This document shows positions 8,150 through 32,548 of a DNA stretch of 35,578 nucleotides, in pieces. Position 1 is the first letter of the stretch, and each line of letters begins with the position of its first letter. Origin of the DNA: a virus; IMG/VR virus record IMGVR_UViG_3300046517_000320, positions 1 through 35,578 of that record. One strand, written 5' to 3'. The notes below the pieces were generated by a model that saw nothing but the letters and a program-made list of their open reading frames with translations, was not told the DNA's origin and ran no database searches. The position numbers were made by a program, and so were the translations under genes.

Positions 8150-8518
8150 TTATTCCATCCCGCCCTTGACCGCGTTCACGAATCCGCCACGTCGTGCGAT
8201 TAGCTTCTTGGCCGCGCCAACGTCTAGCTTTCGGCTAGTCGTCTTCCGGATGAAGGCGAGGACCTTGGCAACAGGGACGCCACGGTAACGGCTAGCGGCT
8301 TTGGCGAACGCTTCAACGCTACGGTCCTGCCTAGACGAGTTGCAGGATAGGCACGACGTGACAAGGTTGGTTTCGTTGTTGCTTCCACCCTTGGAATGGG
8401 CGATTAGGTGATCCAGGGTGAGTCTAACCGTGTCTTCGACGGTAGCCTGACACCAGACGCAGGCTAGGCCATCCCGTAGGTATATGGCAAGGCGCTTTTC
8501 CTTGCGGATCCAGTTCAT
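8150..8518 (-). CDS. HNH endonuclease (McrA-like)
   Basis: Start at 8518 (MNWIRKEKRLAIYLRDG) has GGAGG seven bases upstream. Longer in-frame starts run into the promoter. The 122-residue product has the HNH core: a CVWC pair, then LTLDHLIAHSKGGSNNETN with the catalytic His pair region and Asn, then CLSCNSSR as the second zinc pair. HNH proteins cut or nick DNA. Stand-alone copies are common in phages as homing nucleases or packaging helpers. First gene of the leftward operon, behind a promoter of the phage-wide family. Substrate is unknown. Confidence 0.85.
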   Translation of the reverse strand: MNWIRKEKRLAIYLRDGLACVWCQATVEDTVRLTLDHLIAHSKGGSNNETNLVTSCLSCNSSRQDRSVEAFAKAASRYRGVPVAKVLAFIRKTTSRKLDVGAAKKLIARRGGFVNAVKGGME

Positions 8519-8576
8519 CCCCTGGCCTCCGTTTAGGTGCCGGTCGCGCGGTCGGCGTAAGTGCTTCACGAGAACC

Positions 8577-8605
8577 AAGATAGCGAAGTTTAAAACCGCT
8601 GTCAA
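8577..8605 (-). promoter_or_regulatory. Leftward promoter of the HNH operon with GTTTTAAAC spacer site
   Basis: On the minus strand TTGACA (8605-8600), a 17-bp spacer containing GCGGTTTTAAACTT, and TATCTT (8582-8577). The predicted start near 8570 leaves a ~50-base leader before the HNH start. The spacer palindrome matches that of the rightward promoters, suggesting shared control. Confidence 0.75.
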
Positions 8606-8656
8606 GTGGTATTTTTGCCGAATGCACGCCAGGAACGCCAGGGAACGCATCCTACG

Positions 8657-8675
8657 ACGGCCGGCTGGCGAAAGG
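8657..8675 (-). repeat. Partial copy of dispersed GGCCGG element (reverse orientation)
   Basis: ACGGCCGGCTGGCGAAAGG on the plus strand. Its reverse complement matches the end of the copy at 21852-21916 (CCTTTCCCTAGCCGGCCGT) with two differences over 19 bases, continuing to GCCGGCCGTC. Confidence 0.45.
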
Positions 8676-8689
8676 TAAAACGTTTTACC
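8674..8689. promoter_or_regulatory. Perfect 16-bp palindrome, candidate operator
   Basis: GGTAAAACGTTTTACC is its own reverse complement. It lies between the leftward promoter and the hairpin array and resembles a dimeric repressor operator. No cognate repressor gene was identified in the window. Confidence 0.5.
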
Positions 8690-8778
8690 AACGGCTAATA
8701 TAGTAGGGTCCGGGTGTTTCTACGTCCATTTTGAAATGCCCAGGAAGGCCCCTAGCAACGCCTACGTTCAACGTGGCC

Positions 8779-8998
8779 GTAAGTGTTAGAAAACAAAGGG
8801 GTTACGGCCGTTTCCCAGAAAGCCCTAACCTGTTGAAAGTAAAGGGGTTACCCGTAACCCTAACAAACCAAAGGGTTTACCTAAGTGTTGAAAACAAAGG
8901 ACTTAGCCAAAACCTGGCTAAGTTGTTGAAAACACAGCACTTAGTTTTCCACAGGCTAACCCGTTGAACTGTAAGGGTTTCCGGCTAAGTCGTTGACT
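8779..8998. repeat. Seven-unit hairpin array: covarying stems, conserved GTTGAAAACAAAG loop
   Basis: Units of ~26 bp begin near 8779, 8825, 8854, 8881, 8918, 8956 and 8985. Each has a short arm, a loop like GTTGAAAACAAAG, and a complementary arm. The arms change together: GTAA/TTAC (8 bp if extended: GGCCGTAA/TTACGGCC), TAACC/GGTTA, AACCC/GGGTT, CTAAGT/ACTTAG twice, AACCC/GGGTT, and a partial AGTC/GACT. Neighbouring arms can also pair, for example CTTAGCC 8902-8908 with GGCTAAG 8916-8922 and GGGTTAC 8845-8851 with GTAACCC 8854-8860. Possible roles are origin iterons, repressor sites or structured RNA. Confidence 0.75.
8945..8953 (+). promoter_or_regulatory. DnaA-box-like site
   Basis: TTTTCCACA, one base from the TTATCCACA consensus, inside the hairpin array between units five and six. 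A single short match could be chance. The context gives it some weight. Confidence 0.35.
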
Positions 8999-9063
8999 CG
9001 TATAGACATCGTTATTTCTCCTACCTATCTATAGGGAAAACGCATCTTCGGGAAAAATACCTG

Positions 9064-9091
9064 TTGACAAAGTTTTAAACTGGCGTATCTT
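9064..9091 (+). promoter_or_regulatory. Promoter with GTTTTAAAC spacer site, leaderless output
   Basis: TTGACA (9064-9069), a 16-bp spacer with AGTTTTAAACTGG, and TATCTT (9086-9091). The next gene's GTG starts at 9099, seven bases after the -10 box, where transcription should begin, so the mRNA is probably leaderless. Confidence 0.75.
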
Positions 9092-9354: not shown

Positions 9355-9765
9355 ATGGCAACCCCGACCGCCGCTCCCTCGAAGCCGGCTCCCGCTCCCG
9401 GTCCGAAGCCCGTCAAGTCGTTTGCCGTGACCCTTCGGGATCCCTCCCAGGCCGCGATCTACGTCACGGCCAAGGTCCAGGCGGATGGCAAGGTCATCAC
9501 CCGCGTGAAGCACAAGGCCAAGATCGACGGCGTGAGGACGGTCAAGTACGGAGCCAGCGAGACGCATCCGAACCTCGAGGCCGGTCGCAAGGCCGTGGAC
9601 GTGATGGTCGCGGAATTCATCAAGCTCGGCTGGTCCAAGAGCACTCGCGTGGTCGGCACCCGTGGTGCGGATTCGTTCGATCTTTCCAGCCTGCCCAAGC
9701 CGAACATGACTCCCGCCAAGCCGACTCCCCCGGCTCCCAAGGCCGAGAAGGCGCCGAAGAAGTAA
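9355..9765 (+). CDS. GC-rich hypothetical protein with Pro/Ala/Lys-rich ends (136 aa)
   Basis: ATG at 9355 with a weak upstream GAAAGG. Residues 1-20 (ATPTAAPSKPAPAPGPKPVK) and the C-terminus from ~110 (Pro, Ala and Lys rich) look disordered. The basic core between them (LRDPSQAAIYVTAKVQADGK and ASETHPNLEAGRKAVDVMV) looks like a small alpha/beta domain. Codon use is strongly GC-ending, unlike neighbours further right. It has its own promoter and terminator, as if strongly or separately expressed. A nucleic-acid-binding role is possible given the charge, but no family was recognised. Confidence 0.75.
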   Translation: MATPTAAPSKPAPAPGPKPVKSFAVTLRDPSQAAIYVTAKVQADGKVITRVKHKAKIDGVRTVKYGASETHPNLEAGRKAVDVMVAEFIKLGWSKSTRVVGTRGADSFDLSSLPKPNMTPAKPTPPAPKAEKAPKK

Positions 9766-11001: not shown

Positions 11002-11286
11002 GTGGAAAAGACACAAGGAGCCGTTCCTGGTATCGAACTCTTCGGCAATGGTGGCGCAACCATTGATGGACCTGAGGCGGTAGACTACTTCCGCCTTTGC
11101 GTGATTATCAACGCTCTTCACTTGGAGCTTAAGGTTCCTGGACTGCGAGCGTCACGCTTCTCCGCGCTGAAAGCTGCGAAACTCACCTACAACGTCAAGG
11201 GCAATAAAGCCCGAGTGGTCGCACAGTTGGAGGTCATCCGTGAAGTTCTCCGGAAGGAGATGAATGACCGAAAGGAAGTTCAGTGA
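11002..11286 (+). CDS. Hypothetical protein (94 aa)
   Basis: GTG start with TAGGAGG six bases upstream. The product is mostly helical with a basic centre (VPGLRASRFSALKAAKLTYN). The stop overlaps the next GTG start by four bases (GTGA). No family recognised. Confidence 0.7.
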   Translation: MEKTQGAVPGIELFGNGGATIDGPEAVDYFRLCVIINALHLELKVPGLRASRFSALKAAKLTYNVKGNKARVVAQLEVIREVLRKEMNDRKEVQ

Positions 11287-25848: not shown

Positions 25849-26019
25849 ATGAAGTGTCCCTACTGTCAATCTGAAAACGTCGATTACCCTACCGTTAACA
25901 TTGGTGTGGGAGAACAGCAGTGCGCTCCGGCAGGGTGTATGGATTGCGGCGCCGTCCAGCTCTACCCAGACGAATCTCCTAAAACAGAGGAGGAAAAGAA
26001 GACCGGCTGGACGCGGTGA
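25849..26019 (+). CDS. Zinc-ribbon small protein (56 aa)
   Basis: ATG with AAGGAGAAATC upstream. CPYC and CMDC pairs, with a further Cys before the second pair (CAPAG), make a zinc ribbon like transcription or replication ribbons, then an acidic then basic tail. The stop overlaps the first glycosyltransferase GTG (GTGA). Possible accessory to that gene set by position. Confidence 0.65.
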   Translation: MKCPYCQSENVDYPTVNIGVGEQQCAPAGCMDCGAVQLYPDESPKTEEEKKTGWTR

Positions 26020-26798
26020 ACATCTGCATTTGTATTCCCACCAAACGCCACCCTCCTCTTCGAACGTTGATGAACCATCCGACAGGAGGCTTTCCGGTCA
26101 TCGTAATTGCTGATCCTGAAGTATACGACGAGCACGTTGCATATTCAGATAACCTCGTCGAAATGGGGAAGAAGGGGATTGGAGCCCAAGTTGCAGAGTG
26201 TTATACACAAGCTGCGGCTCATGGCTATGATCACTTCGTCAGGCTGGACGATGACCTCGAACCTGGGGTTTTTGTTGAACGTGCTCAGGAAGACCCGGAG
26301 GACACTGACAAAGATGCGGACTTCGAGGTTCGTCGTCCATCTCTTCTTTACGTTATTGACAAGTTGATCGAATGTCTTGAGCATACAGGATTGTCGTATG
26401 CCGGCATCAATTCCAATGGGAATGCCCACTGGATGAGAGCAGGGTACTCGAAGACATACGGTGATCTTCCTGGCTGTTGCAATCTGTCAATAGCGAGCCC
26501 CACACCGTTCATGGATCCTGAACTAAAGCGCATGGAGTGGGTCTACAGAGTCTGCGCTCACCGACGTTACGACCTTGCTAACGGAGGGGCAGGGAGAAAC
26601 GGCAAGGTCAATTTCATCGGGCTCGACTACAAGCGGCTCTGGGGGAACATGACATCTTGCGACATATCACAGGAAGATATGGACAAGTCCCAGAACATCA
26701 TTCTAACGGCCTTCTCCGATCTCGTCATGTTCACTGACCCATCAACTTGGACTAACGCCGTTCCTCACAACATTCCAAAGGTTAAGTATCTCAAATGA
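26016..26798 (+). CDS. GT-A-like glycosyltransferase, paralog 1
   Basis: GTG overlapping the previous stop, 260 residues. First of five tandem paralogs. NICICIPTKRHPPL, IADPEVYDEH, AECYTQAAAHGYDHFVRLDDD (DxD-type metal site) and CAHRRYD then GKVNFIGLDY and SCDISQED are shared landmarks. A GT-A fold with nucleotide-sugar use is inferred from the N-terminal strand and DDD motif. It has an extra acidic insert (EDPEDTDKDAD) after the DDD region, and KTYGDLPGCC instead of the HISGG motif of paralogs 3 and 4. Confidence 0.65.
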   Translation: MNICICIPTKRHPPLRTLMNHPTGGFPVIVIADPEVYDEHVAYSDNLVEMGKKGIGAQVAECYTQAAAHGYDHFVRLDDDLEPGVFVERAQEDPEDTDKDADFEVRRPSLLYVIDKLIECLEHTGLSYAGINSNGNAHWMRAGYSKTYGDLPGCCNLSIASPTPFMDPELKRMEWVYRVCAHRRYDLANGGAGRNGKVNFIGLDYKRLWGNMTSCDISQEDMDKSQNIILTAFSDLVMFTDPSTWTNAVPHNIPKVKYLK

Positions 26799-27586
26799 GA
26801 GATAAAAGTGAGATTCTGGTCTGTATACCTTCGAAGAGACTTCCTCCGTTAACAAGTCTTGAGCTTCACCTTGAACGGCTACGTTACCCTATTCTCCTTA
26901 TCTCGGACCCAGACGTTTTCGAGATTCACAGACAATTCTATGATGGGTCCAAGATAGACGTAATACGTGGAGAACACGGTGTCAAACGGCAGACCATGAG
27001 ATGCTACTCCGAAGCCGCTGACCGCGGGTATCAGCATTTCTTTAGAATGGATGACGACTACATCCCTGGTGTCTTTTACCAACTGGAGAAGCAATTAGAT
27101 GTCGACATCAATGACATCATCGAACAAGCACACCGATGTCTGCTTGAACTGAATGTCTCTTACGTTGGGTTCATGAATACCAAGAATCCTAGGGAACTGA
27201 GACCTTCATTTTCCAAAACTCACGGTCATCTCGCCGGTGCCGCCGTCATGGCTATCTCAACCAAGACCCCGGAAACTTTCATGAGCCTTGACCCTGATCT
27301 TGCAGGGGTTCACGAAGACCTCTACAGAACATGTGCTCACAGAAGGTACGAGCGCGACGTTCTTGGTGGGCGAGGGGAAAACGGGAGAGTTAACTTTATC
27401 GGGGCTACGTGGGCCGGATGCTTCGGAAAGAACACGTCGATCGTATCTACGCAGGAAGGGATTTACAGATCCGAAAATTTCCTTTCACAAGAGTTCCCTG
27501 ACATGATAACCTTCATTGATGGTAGTGAGTACGTGAACGTTCTGGGTTTCGAGAAACGAAAGAAACGTTATCTCAAGTCTTGGTGA
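26795..27586 (+). CDS. GT-A-like glycosyltransferase, paralog 2
   Basis: ATG overlaps paralog 1's stop (ATGA), 263 residues. ILVCIPSKRLPPL, ISDPDVFEIH, RCYSEAADRGYQHFFRMDDD, KTHGHLAGAA, CAHRRYERDV, GRVNFIGATW and KNTSIVSTQEG align in order with the other copies. Paralogs 2 and 4 share the FFRMDDD and FGKNTSI/YGKNTSI forms, marking a subgroup. Metal-dependent sugar transfer is inferred from the DDD site. Acceptor unknown. Confidence 0.65.
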   Translation: MRDKSEILVCIPSKRLPPLTSLELHLERLRYPILLISDPDVFEIHRQFYDGSKIDVIRGEHGVKRQTMRCYSEAADRGYQHFFRMDDDYIPGVFYQLEKQLDVDINDIIEQAHRCLLELNVSYVGFMNTKNPRELRPSFSKTHGHLAGAAVMAISTKTPETFMSLDPDLAGVHEDLYRTCAHRRYERDVLGGRGENGRVNFIGATWAGCFGKNTSIVSTQEGIYRSENFLSQEFPDMITFIDGSEYVNVLGFEKRKKRYLKSW

Positions 27587-27588
27587 TT

Positions 27589-28392
27589 ATGAACACTTGT
27601 ATCTGTATCCCAACCAAACGAAAAACCCCAGTTCTAACTCTGGAAAGTTTCAGTATTCCAGATGACAGGAAAGTCCTGCTCATTTGTGACCCCGAAGTCT
27701 ATCAGGAACACAAAGAAAAATACGAGAACGACCCTAAAATCATGGTTGTTCTTGGGGTTCGAGGTATGGCTCGTCAGGCGTCAGAATGTTATCGCTTGGC
27801 GGCATTGCACGGATACGACACTTTCCTGCGCCTTGATGACGACCTTCAACCCGACTCGTTCATTCACGTAGATGGGTATAGTGTCGGTCTTGAAGAACTC
27901 ATCAACGAGATGCAGGACTGTATGGAGCATTTCGATATTACTCTCGTAGGGCTTCAAATGACGTCTAATCGGTATTGGTTGGACAACAATGATCAGCCTT
28001 ACGGTCGAGCGTATTCTCATATCTCCGGTGGGGTAAGTCTGGTTAAAAGTTCTCTTGACCCGACGGTCTTTGTTCACCCACTTCTGAGACATAGTGAGGA
28101 TACTTGGAGAACTTGTTCCCATCGTCAATATGACATTGATCGTGGTGGCAAGGGGTTGAATGGGAGAGTGAATTTTATCGGATTCAACTTCTCTGGTTGC
28201 ATGGAATGGAGCCAAGGGAACAAGGGCAATAAGTCGATTATTGATTCTAATCAGGAAGACATTGAGAGTGACAAGCGTTTGATTGAAGAACACTTTTCAC
28301 ATCTGATAGAATTCGGCAGACTTGGAGACTATGACAATGGAGGTAAGTACCGGAATTACAAGAAGAAGTATCTAAGGTACAAACCAAACTAG
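27589..28392 (+). CDS. GT-A-like glycosyltransferase, paralog 3
   Basis: ATG at 27589 gives MNTCICIPTKRKTP, matching the paralog starts. A GTG at 27583, overlapping the previous stop (GTGA), is an alternative. CDPEVYQEH, ECYRLAALHGYDTFLRLDDD, YSHISGGVSLV, CSHRQYD and GRVNFIGFNF, then SIIDSNQED are present. An extra loop (EWSQGNKGNK) sits before the last motif. Basic C-terminus (YKKKYLRYKPN). Confidence 0.65.
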   Translation: MNTCICIPTKRKTPVLTLESFSIPDDRKVLLICDPEVYQEHKEKYENDPKIMVVLGVRGMARQASECYRLAALHGYDTFLRLDDDLQPDSFIHVDGYSVGLEELINEMQDCMEHFDITLVGLQMTSNRYWLDNNDQPYGRAYSHISGGVSLVKSSLDPTVFVHPLLRHSEDTWRTCSHRQYDIDRGGKGLNGRVNFIGFNFSGCMEWSQGNKGNKSIIDSNQEDIESDKRLIEEHFSHLIEFGRLGDYDNGGKYRNYKKKYLRYKPN

Positions 28393-28400
28393 GAGACGTT

Positions 28401-29171
28401 GTGGAAAATCTGCTAATCATTATTCCAACGAAAAGAAAGCCTCCAGTTAAAACGTTGGAAACTTATCAACCAGTCAAATATCCAATAGTGATTCTTGCTG
28501 ATCCTTCAGTTTATGAGGAACATCAAGAGTACTACCGCTTTTCTCTCGCAAAGGTAATTCCTGGCGCAGTTGGGATGGGGGCTCAATCCCACCTTTGCTA
28601 CGTCACGGCTCATGAATTGGGTTTCGATAAATTCTTTCGCATGGATGACGATCATGTTCCGGGGATGTTTCGCGCGTGTGATCTAATGACTGATGCAATC
28701 TATGAACCGTCATTAGATATTATTATCCATTGTGCGAATTTTTGTCTTAAAACTCTACCAGTAACCTTGGTAGGATTTCAGAATAAAATAGGAGCTGCCG
28801 CCTTATCTTCTGGGAGTGGTAAGTGCAGAGAAACCTTTACCCACATCTCGGGTGGCGCAAATTTAGCCGTGGTCATCCCCGGCATGCTTGACGATAAGGT
28901 CCTCAAGACACTACAAAGAAATGAAGATTCTTATCGAACCTGCTTCCACCGTAAGCGTGCTCTCAACCAGAAGAACGGCAGAGTAACCCACATCGGGGTT
29001 TCTTGGAGTAAGTGCTACGGGAAGAACACGTCAATCCTCTGTAGTCAGGAAGAACTCACTGCGTCTGAGGACACGGTTTCGAGATGCTTCCCTGACATGC
29101 TGACCTACGGCCCGGAGACATTGCTGGATGAGCGTGGACTCACCATAAGAAAGCGGAGATACCTTCCTTGA
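28401..29171 (+). CDS. GT-A-like glycosyltransferase, paralog 4
   Basis: GTG with TAGGAGA upstream, 256 residues. LLIIIPTKRKPPV, LADPSVYEEH, CYVTAHELGFDKFFRMDDDH, FTHISGGANLAV, CFHRKRALN, GRVTHIGVSW and YGKNTSILCSQEE. All landmarks are kept, so it is probably active. The stop overlaps paralog 5's TTG. Confidence 0.65.
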   Translation: MENLLIIIPTKRKPPVKTLETYQPVKYPIVILADPSVYEEHQEYYRFSLAKVIPGAVGMGAQSHLCYVTAHELGFDKFFRMDDDHVPGMFRACDLMTDAIYEPSLDIIIHCANFCLKTLPVTLVGFQNKIGAAALSSGSGKCRETFTHISGGANLAVVIPGMLDDKVLKTLQRNEDSYRTCFHRKRALNQKNGRVTHIGVSWSKCYGKNTSILCSQEELTASEDTVSRCFPDMLTYGPETLLDERGLTIRKRRYLP

Positions 29172-29902
29172 GCGTGTGTATCTGCATCCCCACTAAACGG
29201 AAGCCACCACTAGACACTCTGAAAAATTACAAGGTTCCAAGAGAAGTCAAAACATATATCATCGCCGACCCTTCTGTGTACACGGATCACCGATCGTACT
29301 ATTCTCGCTCGGAGTATTACGTTCTCCCCGGTGTCCCTGGAATGTGTGCGCAAATCGCTGAATGCTACAGTTGGGCTTACTCCCATGGGCACGATTGGTT
29401 CTTACGTTTAGATGATGACTGTCCACCTAACATCTTTCGACACTATGACGAGAGCCCTGCTACCTTGGATGAAATTCTCCAAGAATGTCTGACTTGTGCG
29501 GAGACATTAGGGGTTACTCTTGTTGGGCTTAATCTTAAGCATTCCGATATGTGTTTAGACTATGAACACAGTGATAGGAACACTTATGGATTTGTGAATT
29601 TCGCGAGAAGCACAAACCATCCTGAATTGTTCGTGGACACTACTCTACAGAAGCGTGAAATCGAGTACAGGGTTTGCGCTCACCGTAGGCATGACAAGAA
29701 GTTGATGGGCGTAGTGAAGCATATCTACGCAAAGTACAGTCTCATTAAAAATGTTCCTACCGTCATCGAAAACAGTGTTAAAGCCAGTAACGAAGCGTTG
29801 CTGAGAATAGTCGAATTGTTCCCGGAGATGGTCACCCGTATGGACCTTAAACACGGTGGAGATGGTTCAGTAGTTACGATGAAATTTAAAAGAATCACTT
29901 GA
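29168..29902 (+). CDS. GT-A-like glycosyltransferase, paralog 5 (diverged)
   Basis: TTG start overlapping the previous stop. A GTG at 29174 is an alternative. 244 residues, the shortest. VCICIPTKRKPPL, IADPSVYTDH, AECYSWAYSHGHDWFLRLDDD and CAHRRHD are kept, but the HISGG motif is replaced by YGFVNFARS and the GKNxS...SQED motif is lost (KNVPTVIENSVKASNE). It may have a changed acceptor or partial loss of function. Its stop lies in the next promoter's -35 box. Confidence 0.6.
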   Translation: MSVCICIPTKRKPPLDTLKNYKVPREVKTYIIADPSVYTDHRSYYSRSEYYVLPGVPGMCAQIAECYSWAYSHGHDWFLRLDDDCPPNIFRHYDESPATLDEILQECLTCAETLGVTLVGLNLKHSDMCLDYEHSDRNTYGFVNFARSTNHPELFVDTTLQKREIEYRVCAHRRHDKKLMGVVKHIYAKYSLIKNVPTVIENSVKASNEALLRIVELFPEMVTRMDLKHGGDGSVVTMKFKRIT

Positions 29903-29927
29903 CATTTGAGTTTAAATATGGTAGGGT
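29899..29927 (+). promoter_or_regulatory. Promoter with degenerate GTTTnAAA spacer site
   Basis: TTGACA (29899-29904), 17-bp spacer TTTGAGTTTAAATATGG, TAGGGT (29922-29927). A GTG follows at 29937, leaving a leader of at most ~3 bases. Separates the glycosyltransferases from the kinase cluster. Confidence 0.7.
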
Positions 29928-29936
29928 TGGGTACTT

Positions 29937-30125
29937 GTGAAATCCTTTGGTCAGTTACCGAGACGTGGTGGGTTGGCAGCAGTGAGACACTCTGTTTTGC
30001 TGGAAATCCGAGCCGGTAACTCTGAAGGTGCCTATGCCCTGACTAAGATTCTAGTTAGGTTAGCCCGTCAACGAGAGGAAAGAAAGAATGATAGTCAACG
30101 TAAGAGGAACGAACGGATCGGGTAA
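29937..30125 (+). CDS. Basic leader-proximal small protein (62 aa, uncertain)
   Basis: GTG placed just after the promoter, probably leaderless. Arg/Lys-rich helical product (KSFGQLPRRGGLAAVRHSVL, then LVRLARQREERKN). It overlaps the kinase start by 38 bases in another frame, unusual for this genome, so it could be a leader peptide coupling translation to the kinase, or no gene at all. Confidence 0.4.
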   Translation: MKSFGQLPRRGGLAAVRHSVLLEIRAGNSEGAYALTKILVRLARQREERKNDSQRKRNERIG

Positions 30126-30708
30126 GACAACAGTCGTGCGCGAATTGATGAAGCGTTACAAAGCCATCAAGAATGTCGAACTCCCCAACAGCGCCCGACG
30201 AACCCCCATCGGTCATTTGTGCGGCCTGCACGATGACGACACTTTCAACCTTTGGTTGATGGGGCCTTACCTCGACACTTGCCAGACCGGCGGATGCGAC
30301 CTCATCAAGAACCCTTCACACATCATGGATGATGACGGCATGACCGTCATCACCCCCGGCTACTTTTCGATCATCGAGGAACGTGCGCGGGAAGGTTACC
30401 ACGTTCTCTTCGAAGGGATCGTCGCGCAGCACTGCACAGGAAAGCTCCTGGATCTTCACAGAGCCAAGCTGGACGTTCTCGTCATTGGGCTTACGACCCC
30501 TGTCGAGATTTGCATCGAACGGGTGAAAATTCGCCGCGCCGAGGGACAAGGGTACAAGAAAGAGCTAGTTCTCGACCCGAGCAACCTGATCCGTGAAGAA
30601 CGCTCCGTAAAGAACGCCCTCGCCAAACTGAAGTCTAACGGTGTCCACGTCGAGCACATGGACGTGGCCGACGCCATCAAACGAATTGCGGGGATCTTCG
30701 GATGTTAG
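30088..30708 (+). CDS. P-loop kinase, 5-hydroxymethyl-dU DNA kinase-like
   Basis: ATG with GAGGAAAG upstream, 206 residues. NVRGTNGSGKTTVVRELM is the Walker A site. LDTCQTGGCDLIKN and YHVLFEGIVAQH, then VLVIGLTTPVEICIERVKIR, LDPSNLIREERS match, from memory, the P-loop kinases that sit beside 5-hmdU-kinase-helical-domain proteins in hypermodified phages. The role would be ATP phosphorylation of 5-hydroxymethyluracil in DNA. A dNMP kinase is the alternative. Next to its probable helical partner, overlapping by seven bases. Confidence 0.7.
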   Translation: MIVNVRGTNGSGKTTVVRELMKRYKAIKNVELPNSARRTPIGHLCGLHDDDTFNLWLMGPYLDTCQTGGCDLIKNPSHIMDDDGMTVITPGYFSIIEERAREGYHVLFEGIVAQHCTGKLLDLHRAKLDVLVIGLTTPVEICIERVKIRRAEGQGYKKELVLDPSNLIREERSVKNALAKLKSNGVHVEHMDVADAIKRIAGIFGC

Positions 30709-31553
30709 AAGAAAACGTCAATCAGTTCTTCGCTACGGCTCGGGAACGTTACAACATCAAACTTCGACGGGAAGCTGGAGAACCTCCGCCGTGGACATTC
30801 GACCCTCACTTCAAGACGTGGCGATTCTGCAACGTTCATCGCGAAGACGACAAGACCACCGTTCACTTTCGCGAGAACGTTCGCAACCCACTAAAGATGG
30901 CTCCACTGTTTCATCAGCTTCGGTCGGCGTTCATTTATCGTTGGTTCAACCGAATTGAAACCAACGATATGATTCTTGATCTTCTTCGTGGTGAATGGAA
31001 CACCGAAGAAGCGAGACGGCGACTCGAAGGGTGGAGCCCACTCGTCACTGGTGCGTTTATGGTCAGTTCTCCCGCAGGGTGCAACAAGCTGGATGGCATC
31101 TTGTGGTGCATTGACACTTCACTCCCAATGCTGGAAGGCTTTCTCGGAAATTGGGGAACTGCCATTTACGGATTTGAAGGACTCAAGGGTTGGTGGAAGC
31201 ATCTCAAGACCCTACCCTACATGGGCGGATTCATGGCCTACGAGCTGGTCTCCGACCTTCGCTGGACTCCCCTTCTGGACAAGGCACCTGACATCATGAC
31301 GTGGGCCAATCCGGGTCCTGGTGCCCAACGTGGGCTGAGCTGGCTCACGCACGACGACAACACAATCAAAATCGACCAAGACGATGTTCAACCGTCGATG
31401 CAGGAACTCCTTGCAAGGGCTGGAGATTCTGCGTATTGGCCTAAGGAGTGGCGTTCTTGGGAGATGCGTGAAGTTGAGCACTGGCTCTGCGAATACGACA
31501 AATGGGAGCGCTCAAACCACGGTCAGTCACAAAAGCGGAGGTACTCGTACTAA
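30702..31553 (+). CDS. 5-hmdU DNA kinase helical-domain (HMUDK_hel) protein
   Basis: ATG overlapping the kinase stop, 283 residues. FATARERYNIKLRREAGEPP, WRFCNVHREDD, GAFMVSSPAG, GGFMAYELVSDLRWTPLL, DIMTWANPGPGAQRGLSWL, EMREVEHWLCEYDKWERSN follow the pattern of the HMUDK_hel family, predicted to work on base-modified DNA with the kinase. The highly conserved MTWANPGPGAQRGL block makes the family call firm. Here kinase and helical parts are separate genes. Stop overlaps the next start (TAATG). Confidence 0.8.
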   Translation: MLEENVNQFFATARERYNIKLRREAGEPPPWTFDPHFKTWRFCNVHREDDKTTVHFRENVRNPLKMAPLFHQLRSAFIYRWFNRIETNDMILDLLRGEWNTEEARRRLEGWSPLVTGAFMVSSPAGCNKLDGILWCIDTSLPMLEGFLGNWGTAIYGFEGLKGWWKHLKTLPYMGGFMAYELVSDLRWTPLLDKAPDIMTWANPGPGAQRGLSWLTHDDNTIKIDQDDVQPSMQELLARAGDSAYWPKEWRSWEMREVEHWLCEYDKWERSNHGQSQKRRYSY

Positions 31554-32548
31554 TGTACGTCATCGAAGCCAGAAACGTAAACGACGCTGCTCAGCACGCG
31601 TACAATGTCATCAACAAAATTGGAGTCGAACGTGGGAGCCGTAACGGTCCAGTACTTGTCTCTCCATATCCCGTCACTACCGTTTATCTCCGGCCCTGGG
31701 AGCGTGTGCTGTTTGGTGAAAAACGAGACGCAAATCCGTTCTTTCACCTATACGAATCCATGTGGATGCTGGCAGGTAGACGAGATCTTGATCCTCTTCT
31801 TCGTTACGTCAAGAACTTCTCCCAGTTCAGCGACGACACTTCCACTCTTCACGGAGCCTACGGGTATCGTTGGCGAAAGATGTTCGGAACCGACCAGCTC
31901 GACGTGATCGTCGAACGTCTCAAAAAGAATCCGGAAGACCGACGCTGTGTTCTCCAAATGTGGAGTGCCATTCACGACCTCGACATTAACTCTCGTGACA
32001 TACCTTGCAACGATACCGCTACGTTTCAAATCGGTCACGACGGTAAGCTAAATCTCGTGGTCTTTTGCCGTAGCAACGATATCGTTCTTGGGTGCTACGG
32101 GGCGAACGCGGTTCACTTCTCTTTTCTGCTGGAATACATGGCGGTGAGAATTGGTGTGCCGATGGGGACGTATTCTCAAGTCAGTGTGAATTGGCACGCC
32201 TACATCTCGACTCTCGACAAGTTGAAGTACGATACGTCGCTCGACATTCAACCCTACGACAATCTGGACACCATTCCAATTCCTTTCGAGAACACTGACA
32301 GGTGCCTCTTAGACCTGCTGAAAAACGTGGACGAACAGGATCAACGGGAAGACCTATTCAATACCCCTTGGATGGACACCGTGTGGCGAGTCATGTTGGC
32401 CCATCAACGTTACCGTCTTTATCCACCACCGTATCGGTTTGAATTTTCGTTGAACGCCCTCGCTAAGTCGGTTCACGTCACCAACGATTGGATCGTTGGG
32501 GCAACACAATGGCTCGAACGACGTTATCGGACCTGGAGAGACCACTAA
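31553..32548 (+). CDS. Thymidylate synthase family protein, probable dUMP hydroxymethylase
   Basis: ATG overlaps the previous stop, 331 residues. RRCVLQMWSA, then DIPCNDTATFQI holds the catalytic Cys152, with Asn where classical synthases have His (PCH). LNLVVFCRSNDIVLG and GANAVHFSFLLEY match the substrate site. The Asn there suggests a uracil substrate, not cytosine. SVNWHAY follows. The form PCN plus RSND...GANAVHFS is what I associate with TS-like proteins of base-modified phages, so dUMP hydroxymethylation to hmdUMP is favoured over ordinary methylation. It would supply the first step of the pathway. Confidence 0.75.
   Translation: MYVIEARNVNDAAQHAYNVINKIGVERGSRNGPVLVSPYPVTTVYLRPWERVLFGEKRDANPFFHLYESMWMLAGRRDLDPLLRYVKNFSQFSDDTSTLHGAYGYRWRKMFGTDQLDVIVERLKKNPEDRRCVLQMWSAIHDLDINSRDIPCNDTATFQIGHDGKLNLVVFCRSNDIVLGCYGANAVHFSFLLEYMAVRIGVPMGTYSQVSVNWHAYISTLDKLKYDTSLDIQPYDNLDTIPIPFENTDRCLLDLLKNVDEQDQREDLFNTPWMDTVWRVMLAHQRYRLYPPPYRFEFSLNALAKSVHVTNDWIVGATQWLERRYRTWRDH

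Follow-up and report, generated by a model that had tools for sequence, protein, structure and literature searches.

A seven-copy array of imperfect dyads between divergent promoter-like sequences of a phage carries a motif that recurs in viral intergenic regions

An array of dyads in a divergent intergenic gap

The virus record IMGVR_UViG_3300046517_000320 (35,578 bp, analyzed whole and referred to here as the window) contains a largely noncoding gap (8650–9090) holding a series of short repeats with complementary flanks, which an earlier note described as seven hairpins whose arms covary around a conserved loop. Are these repeats maintained for the structures into which they fold, or are they copies of a site that is read in another form? 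Window alignment and matrix scoring place a repeat array at 8777–9010, consisting of seven imperfect dyads of 24 to 25 bp, all in one orientation, 62 to 79% alike, and with starts irregularly spaced by 27 to 46 bp:

8780–8804, + strand: unit 1, TAAGTGTTAGAAAACAAAGGGGTTA, 25 bp, matrix score 26.9 (alignment)
8826–8850, + strand: unit 2, TAACCTGTTGAAAGTAAAGGGGTTA, matrix score 26.3 (alignment)
8855–8879, + strand: unit 3, degenerate, TAACCCTAACAAACCAAAGGGTTTA, matrix score 14.5 (alignment)
8882–8905, + strand: unit 4, 24 bp and thus one base short, TAAGTGTTGAAAACAAAGGACTTA, matrix score 28.0 in the 25-bp register from 8881 (alignment)
8919–8943, + strand: unit 5, the best copy, TAAGTTGTTGAAAACACAGCACTTA, matrix score 32.8
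8957–8981, + strand: unit 6, degenerate, TAACCCGTTGAACTGTAAGGGTTTC, matrix score 13.7 (alignment)
8986–9010, + strand: unit 7, reduced to an intact left half-site, TAAGTCGTTGA, the right half being lost (alignment)

The impression of a nonrandom, functional-looking array is borne out, in that the repeat units are real and lie in a divergent intergenic region. It is also correct that they do not form a CRISPR array: their limited likeness and irregular spacing differ from the near-identical repeats and constant spacers of such arrays. As hairpins, the units hold up less well: all seven are recognizable as repeats, but unit 7 has no right arm and unit 1 pairs only partly (TAA/TTA, plus extended outer arms GGCCG/CGGCC). 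Complementary arms had been reported for at least six units, whereas perfect 5- to 6-bp arms exist in five (8826–8850, 8856–8877, 8881–8906, 8918–8944, and 8958–8979), and most arm pairs are of two types, TAACC and TAAGT, each of which occurs on both sides. The number of hairpins is only marginally unusual: the array contains five nonoverlapping perfect hairpins versus 2.5 in dinucleotide shuffles, 92 of 2,000 shuffles have as many, and so do 3 of the 147 blocks of 241 bp into which the window was tiled. Conservation of the loop is not confirmed: GTTGAAAACAAAG is exact in unit 4 only, GTTGAAAACA is present in two units, and the remaining units diverge. Both strands fold better than their shuffles as RNA (z = −3.3 for the + strand and z = −2.4 for the − strand), although for the + strand this would be expected of any dyad array.

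The features surrounding the array are as follows:

8150–8650, − strand: HNH endonuclease gene, left of the array (Pfam HNH, 1.3e-10)
8577–8605, − strand: sigma70-type promoter-like sequence TTGACA-17-TATCTT with GTTTTAAAC in the spacer, directed towards the HNH endonuclease gene
8945–8953, + strand: DnaA-box-like 9-mer TTTTCCACA, a single, weak copy with one mismatch to TTATCCACA
9064–9091, + strand: sigma70-type promoter-like sequence TTGACA-16-TATCTT with GTTTTAAAC in the spacer, directed towards the small ORFs on the right
9355–9765, + strand: orphan ORF of 136 aa, right of the array, without a Pfam or PHROG family

These features agree with the divergent setting and the DnaA-box-like site that had been noticed before: the array lies between promoter-like sequences at 8605 (−) and 9064 (+), which diverge and point outward from the gap. 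A scan of 1.6 kb found three promoter-like sites versus 0.5 expected. Translation of the HNH gene probably begins at an internal Met that lies downstream of the promoter at 8577. No relative of the 136-aa ORF was found by a pattern search of viral contigs or in the phage collection.

A separate feature of these promoters is the 9-bp palindrome GTTTNAAAC, which occupies the −35/−10 spacer of seven TTGAC-type promoters, at 8605 (−) and at 9064, 9271, 9847, 10747, 12881, and 20629 (+). Because all seven copies in the window (7/7) fall inside such spacers, a phage regulator probably uses the palindrome as its operator.

Recurrence of the motif in other viruses

When the arm letters are left free, the window-type core TAANNNGTTGAAAACAAAGNNNTTA matches 37 viral stretches versus 13 for the reversed control, such that part of the 37 may be due to chance. 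Deduplication leaves 30 distinct sites, 23 of which are intergenic, versus 5 distinct control sites, none of which is. At the free positions, GT on the left and AC on the right are each present in 14 of the 30. Loci with this core also hold additional dyads (64, versus 22.4 after shuffling; 22 versus 22.0 in control loci), and these neighboring sites point to a more symmetric parent motif, TAAGTNNTTGANNNTCAANNACTTA, which is 25 bp long with the half-site CGTAAGTCGTTGAT (the full motif can also be written as cgTAAGTNNTTGA-NNN-TCAANNACTTAcg, with each half-site being (CG)TAAGTCGTTGAT). The parent motif is present in at least 120 viral stretches versus 3 for its reversed control, and a relaxed version of it yields 776 distinct sites in the fetched loci versus 18 in shuffled sequence. 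We found no close relatives of the phage itself by DNA, by the ORF at 9355, or by PolA in viral contigs; as such, the evidence for recurrence applies to the motif and not to this particular array.

Strong sites are predominantly intergenic (674 of 814, or 83%), whereas noncoding bases make up only 19.6% of the loci, most of which are partial contigs whose ORFs were called mechanically. Neighboring sites lie at preferred distances of 41 to 42, 48 to 50, and 58 bp, and several contigs possess ten or more sites, mostly paired around a GC-rich spacer. In six loci (L161, L098, L140, L132, L153, and L086), the pairs take the form of composite intergenic elements, in which two 25-bp dyads 40 to 58 bp apart enclose a GC-rich and often palindromic spacer; such elements recur in many gaps of a region of small ORFs. 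In three related phages (L013 at 11415, L014 at 799, and L046 at 3454), the same capsid-like gene ends at the motif, its stop codon either being the first TAA of the motif or abutting it.

Many of the carriers have genes that we read as T4-like (PhoH, a gp55-like sigma factor, terminase, and portal), but other groups are also represented, and a comparison of shared proteins recovered no single protein gene common to all motif-bearing viruses. Neighboring genes shared among loci were considered as the source of the binder and rejected, as they are lineage markers only (by our reading PhoH-, Gp88-, and gp55-like) along with a protein resembling phrog_19182. The window encodes such a protein (94 aa, 11002–11286; E = 0.007), and similar ones exist in seven motif-bearing loci; this small phage protein may well be generic. 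Sinorhizobium phage phiM12 was likewise dropped as a carrier, its IHF-type sites occurring at chance level (6 versus 4.2 in 49 kb).

Controls outside viruses consisted of one asymmetric pattern, which had two matches in all contigs of the genome collection, and of 199 Acidobacteriota genomes, none of which contains the exact dyad. Searching the literature for the sequence strings returned no paper that names the motif, the sole relevant match being a report on Stenotrophomonas phage DLP6, in which PHIRE predicted paired “phage promoters” before the clusters that start at genes 060, 092, 113, 121, and 131 (PMC5349666). The reported positions coincide with pairs of TAAGTCGTTGAT-type half-sites, an identity judged from position. 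The software-called DLP6 promoters differ from the dyads described here in being asymmetric direct repeats, 25 bp apart and located before gene clusters. The IHF-consensus half-sites with this 25-bp pairing upstream of gene clusters in DLP6 (L173, 34653–34727; L175) have an N4 that is mostly GTCG.

Half-sites vary independently

If the arms of each unit were selected to pair, changes on one side should be matched by changes on the other, as the earlier note proposed. Within the window, 74.5% of the cells of an eight-pair stem are paired, versus 69.5% when right arms are redealt among the units, a value reached by 89 of 500 shuffles, and 90 of 500 match or exceed the covariation score; with only seven sequences, this test is weak by itself. 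The 30 window-type sites of other viruses contain 8 complementary pairs versus 7.5 after shuffling (p = 0.48), and left GT and right AC are not coupled. A set of 694 distinct, unoriented sites contains 334 like pairs at positions 4 and 5, more than the 301 ± 7 obtained by global shuffling but in keeping with the 326.9 ± 7.7 obtained when half-sites are shuffled within each genome; the likeness between arms thus reflects the preference of each phage for one version of the half-site. At positions 6 and 7, like pairs are depleted (122 versus 148 ± 9), the opposite of what selection for hairpins would produce. Flank positions 1 and 2 pair above independence (342 versus 289 and 388 versus 334), and some viral copies have longer outer stems.

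The two half-sites, then, vary independently. With no covariation in relatives of the motif and with arms in the window that pair no better than shuffled ones, the view of the units as selected hairpins fails the refutation test set by the earlier note. As far as can be judged from sequence, what looked like arms are the half-sites of a dyad, each varying independently of the other, the “loop” comprises the inner parts of those half-sites plus a short center, and the ability of the array to be drawn as hairpins is a by-product of the dyad. More generally, dyad half-sites can pass for covarying hairpins.

A candidate array of sites for a duplex-DNA-binding protein

We consider the array to be, with somewhat better than even confidence, seven partly decayed copies of a dyad that are predicted to serve as sites for a dimer of a double-stranded-DNA-binding protein, which would shape or regulate the divergent early promoters. 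A host-encoded IHF/HU-like protein or another regulator would bind the half-sites as duplex DNA, and the bound proteins would lie side by side at 27- to 46-bp intervals between the divergent promoters, bending or looping the region and thereby coordinating or blocking early transcription. Given that the array sits between divergent promoters and that the motif is predominantly intergenic in other viruses, the most likely role of the array is regulatory or architectural. The link to promoters comes from inspection of the window and of DLP6 rather than from statistics, since the orientation of genes flanking motif sites does not differ from background. A point against a protein-binding array is that the window copies are degenerate, with four scoring >26 and two only ~14.

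In a broader and more tentative form of this proposal, to which we give rather less than even credence, a single widely conserved factor, which several unrelated phage groups use or themselves encode, would read TAAGTNNTTGANNNTCAANNACTTA and organize intergenic regulation genome-wide, with the window offering a seven-copy array. Were one protein to read the 25-bp site across viruses that differ in their replication and structural genes, it would be either a host factor that many phages need or a shared phage regulator, and either would open a way to study how uncultured phages control their early genes; the motif itself can be searched by a simple pattern. Mycobacteriophage L5 stoperators and the promoter/stem-loop cassettes of T4 type are dispersed phage operators that are typically lineage specific. 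The present sites resemble these in being numerous, short, repeated, and situated in intergenic gaps near promoters, but they differ in sequence and symmetry and in that the motif is common to several phage groups.

The leading named candidate for the binder is the IHF/HU (DNABII) family, a special case of the protein-binding array, in which the dyad would represent two inverted IHF consensuses sharing a central W (YAANNNNTTGAT-W-ATCAANNNNTTR) and host IHF would bend the early region. We take the IHF kink to be placed at the CA|A step. Within the dyad, 9 bp separate the two CA|A steps, which matches the distance between the two kinks of IHF (PMC8421141). When retrieval sites are excluded and the left half-site is fixed (n = 259), the right half reads W.87, A.50, T.75, C.73, A.97, R.99, N4, T.94, T.98, R.95, in agreement with the IHF consensus WATCARNNNNTTR (PMC8421141) at every fixed and degenerate letter. 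The DLP6 half-sites fit this consensus as well (AATCAACGACTTA). Among plasmids, the dyad is matched best by IncW R7K and a related plasmid, within their oriT region, and by Bordetella plasmid BPP5P1, beside an oriT-like region:

L019, 3004–3028: (T/G)AAGTCGTTGAAAATCAACGACTTA dyad by the presumed nic hairpin (IncW R7K)
L020, 3003–3027: (T/G)AAGTCGTTGAAAATCAACGACTTA dyad by the presumed nic hairpin (BPP5P1)

These fit the motif but are single sites rather than arrays. The oriT of R388 binds IHF (PMC3264647), which does not by itself establish that this very dyad is covered. Other results make plain IHF insufficient: two of the four N positions on each side are strongly constrained, as replacing GT/AC with CA/TG inside NNNN, with the IHF letters unchanged, reduces the number of loci from at least 120 to 6. 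The viral sites also differ from ordinary IHF sites in being symmetric, often paired, and abundant in viruses, and the exact dyad is, as noted, missing from the Acidobacteriota genomes. Window units deviate from the consensus by one or two mismatches, none being perfect, and carry TTTCAA or worse instead of WATCAA. Moreover, a check of 40 virus records for a phage-encoded DNABII protein found none, which means that a host protein would be needed. On balance, we regard IHF/HU sites as a somewhat unlikely reading, with IHF a candidate and not an identification.

The other explanations fare worse. Iterons of a phage replication origin, or a partition site, would likewise present repeated sites in direct orientation within a divergent noncoding region, here with one DnaA-box-like 9-mer, and an initiator bound to them would melt the nearby DNA; two plasmid oriV regions (L022 and L023) also have half-sites similar to ours next to iterons, albeit with BLAST matches near chance. 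Yet the DnaA box is single and imperfect, no initiator gene was recognized adjoining the array, and other viruses have the motif scattered across numerous intergenic gaps, not confined to one origin. The earlier note had suggested mapping an origin by GC skew, which shows no switch in the window and lends no support, so that an origin role is possible but improbable. Still less credible is that the units are recognized in folded form, as hairpins of RNA or single-stranded DNA sharing a conserved loop: the folding z scores, the perfect arms of five units, and the longer outer stems of some viral copies favor it, but the lack of covariation in all three data sets, the depletion of like pairs at positions 6 and 7, the DLP6 sites that have no second arm, and an Rfam search without a match near the gathering score largely refute it. 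We attach a similarly slight chance to the copies being small MITE- or REPIN-like repeats that move and spread through phage intergenic regions. Such an element would suit the numerous, nearly identical copies that individual genomes carry in pairs around a GC-rich spacer; however, between phages the 25-bp dyads are alike and the spacers are not, the window array lacks the paired layout, and no common transposase was seen among the shared proteins. Tus-Ter, attC, dif, and FNR boxes were set aside because their sequence or spacing does not fit.

Other features of the phage

Beyond the array, the window contains a run of TAGT-like glycosyltransferase paralogues (26016–32548; weak Pfam matches), a two-part 5-hmdU DNA kinase (30088–31553), and a thymidylate-synthase homologue (31502–32548). 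Based on this gene set, the DNA of the phage is probably thymine hypermodified.
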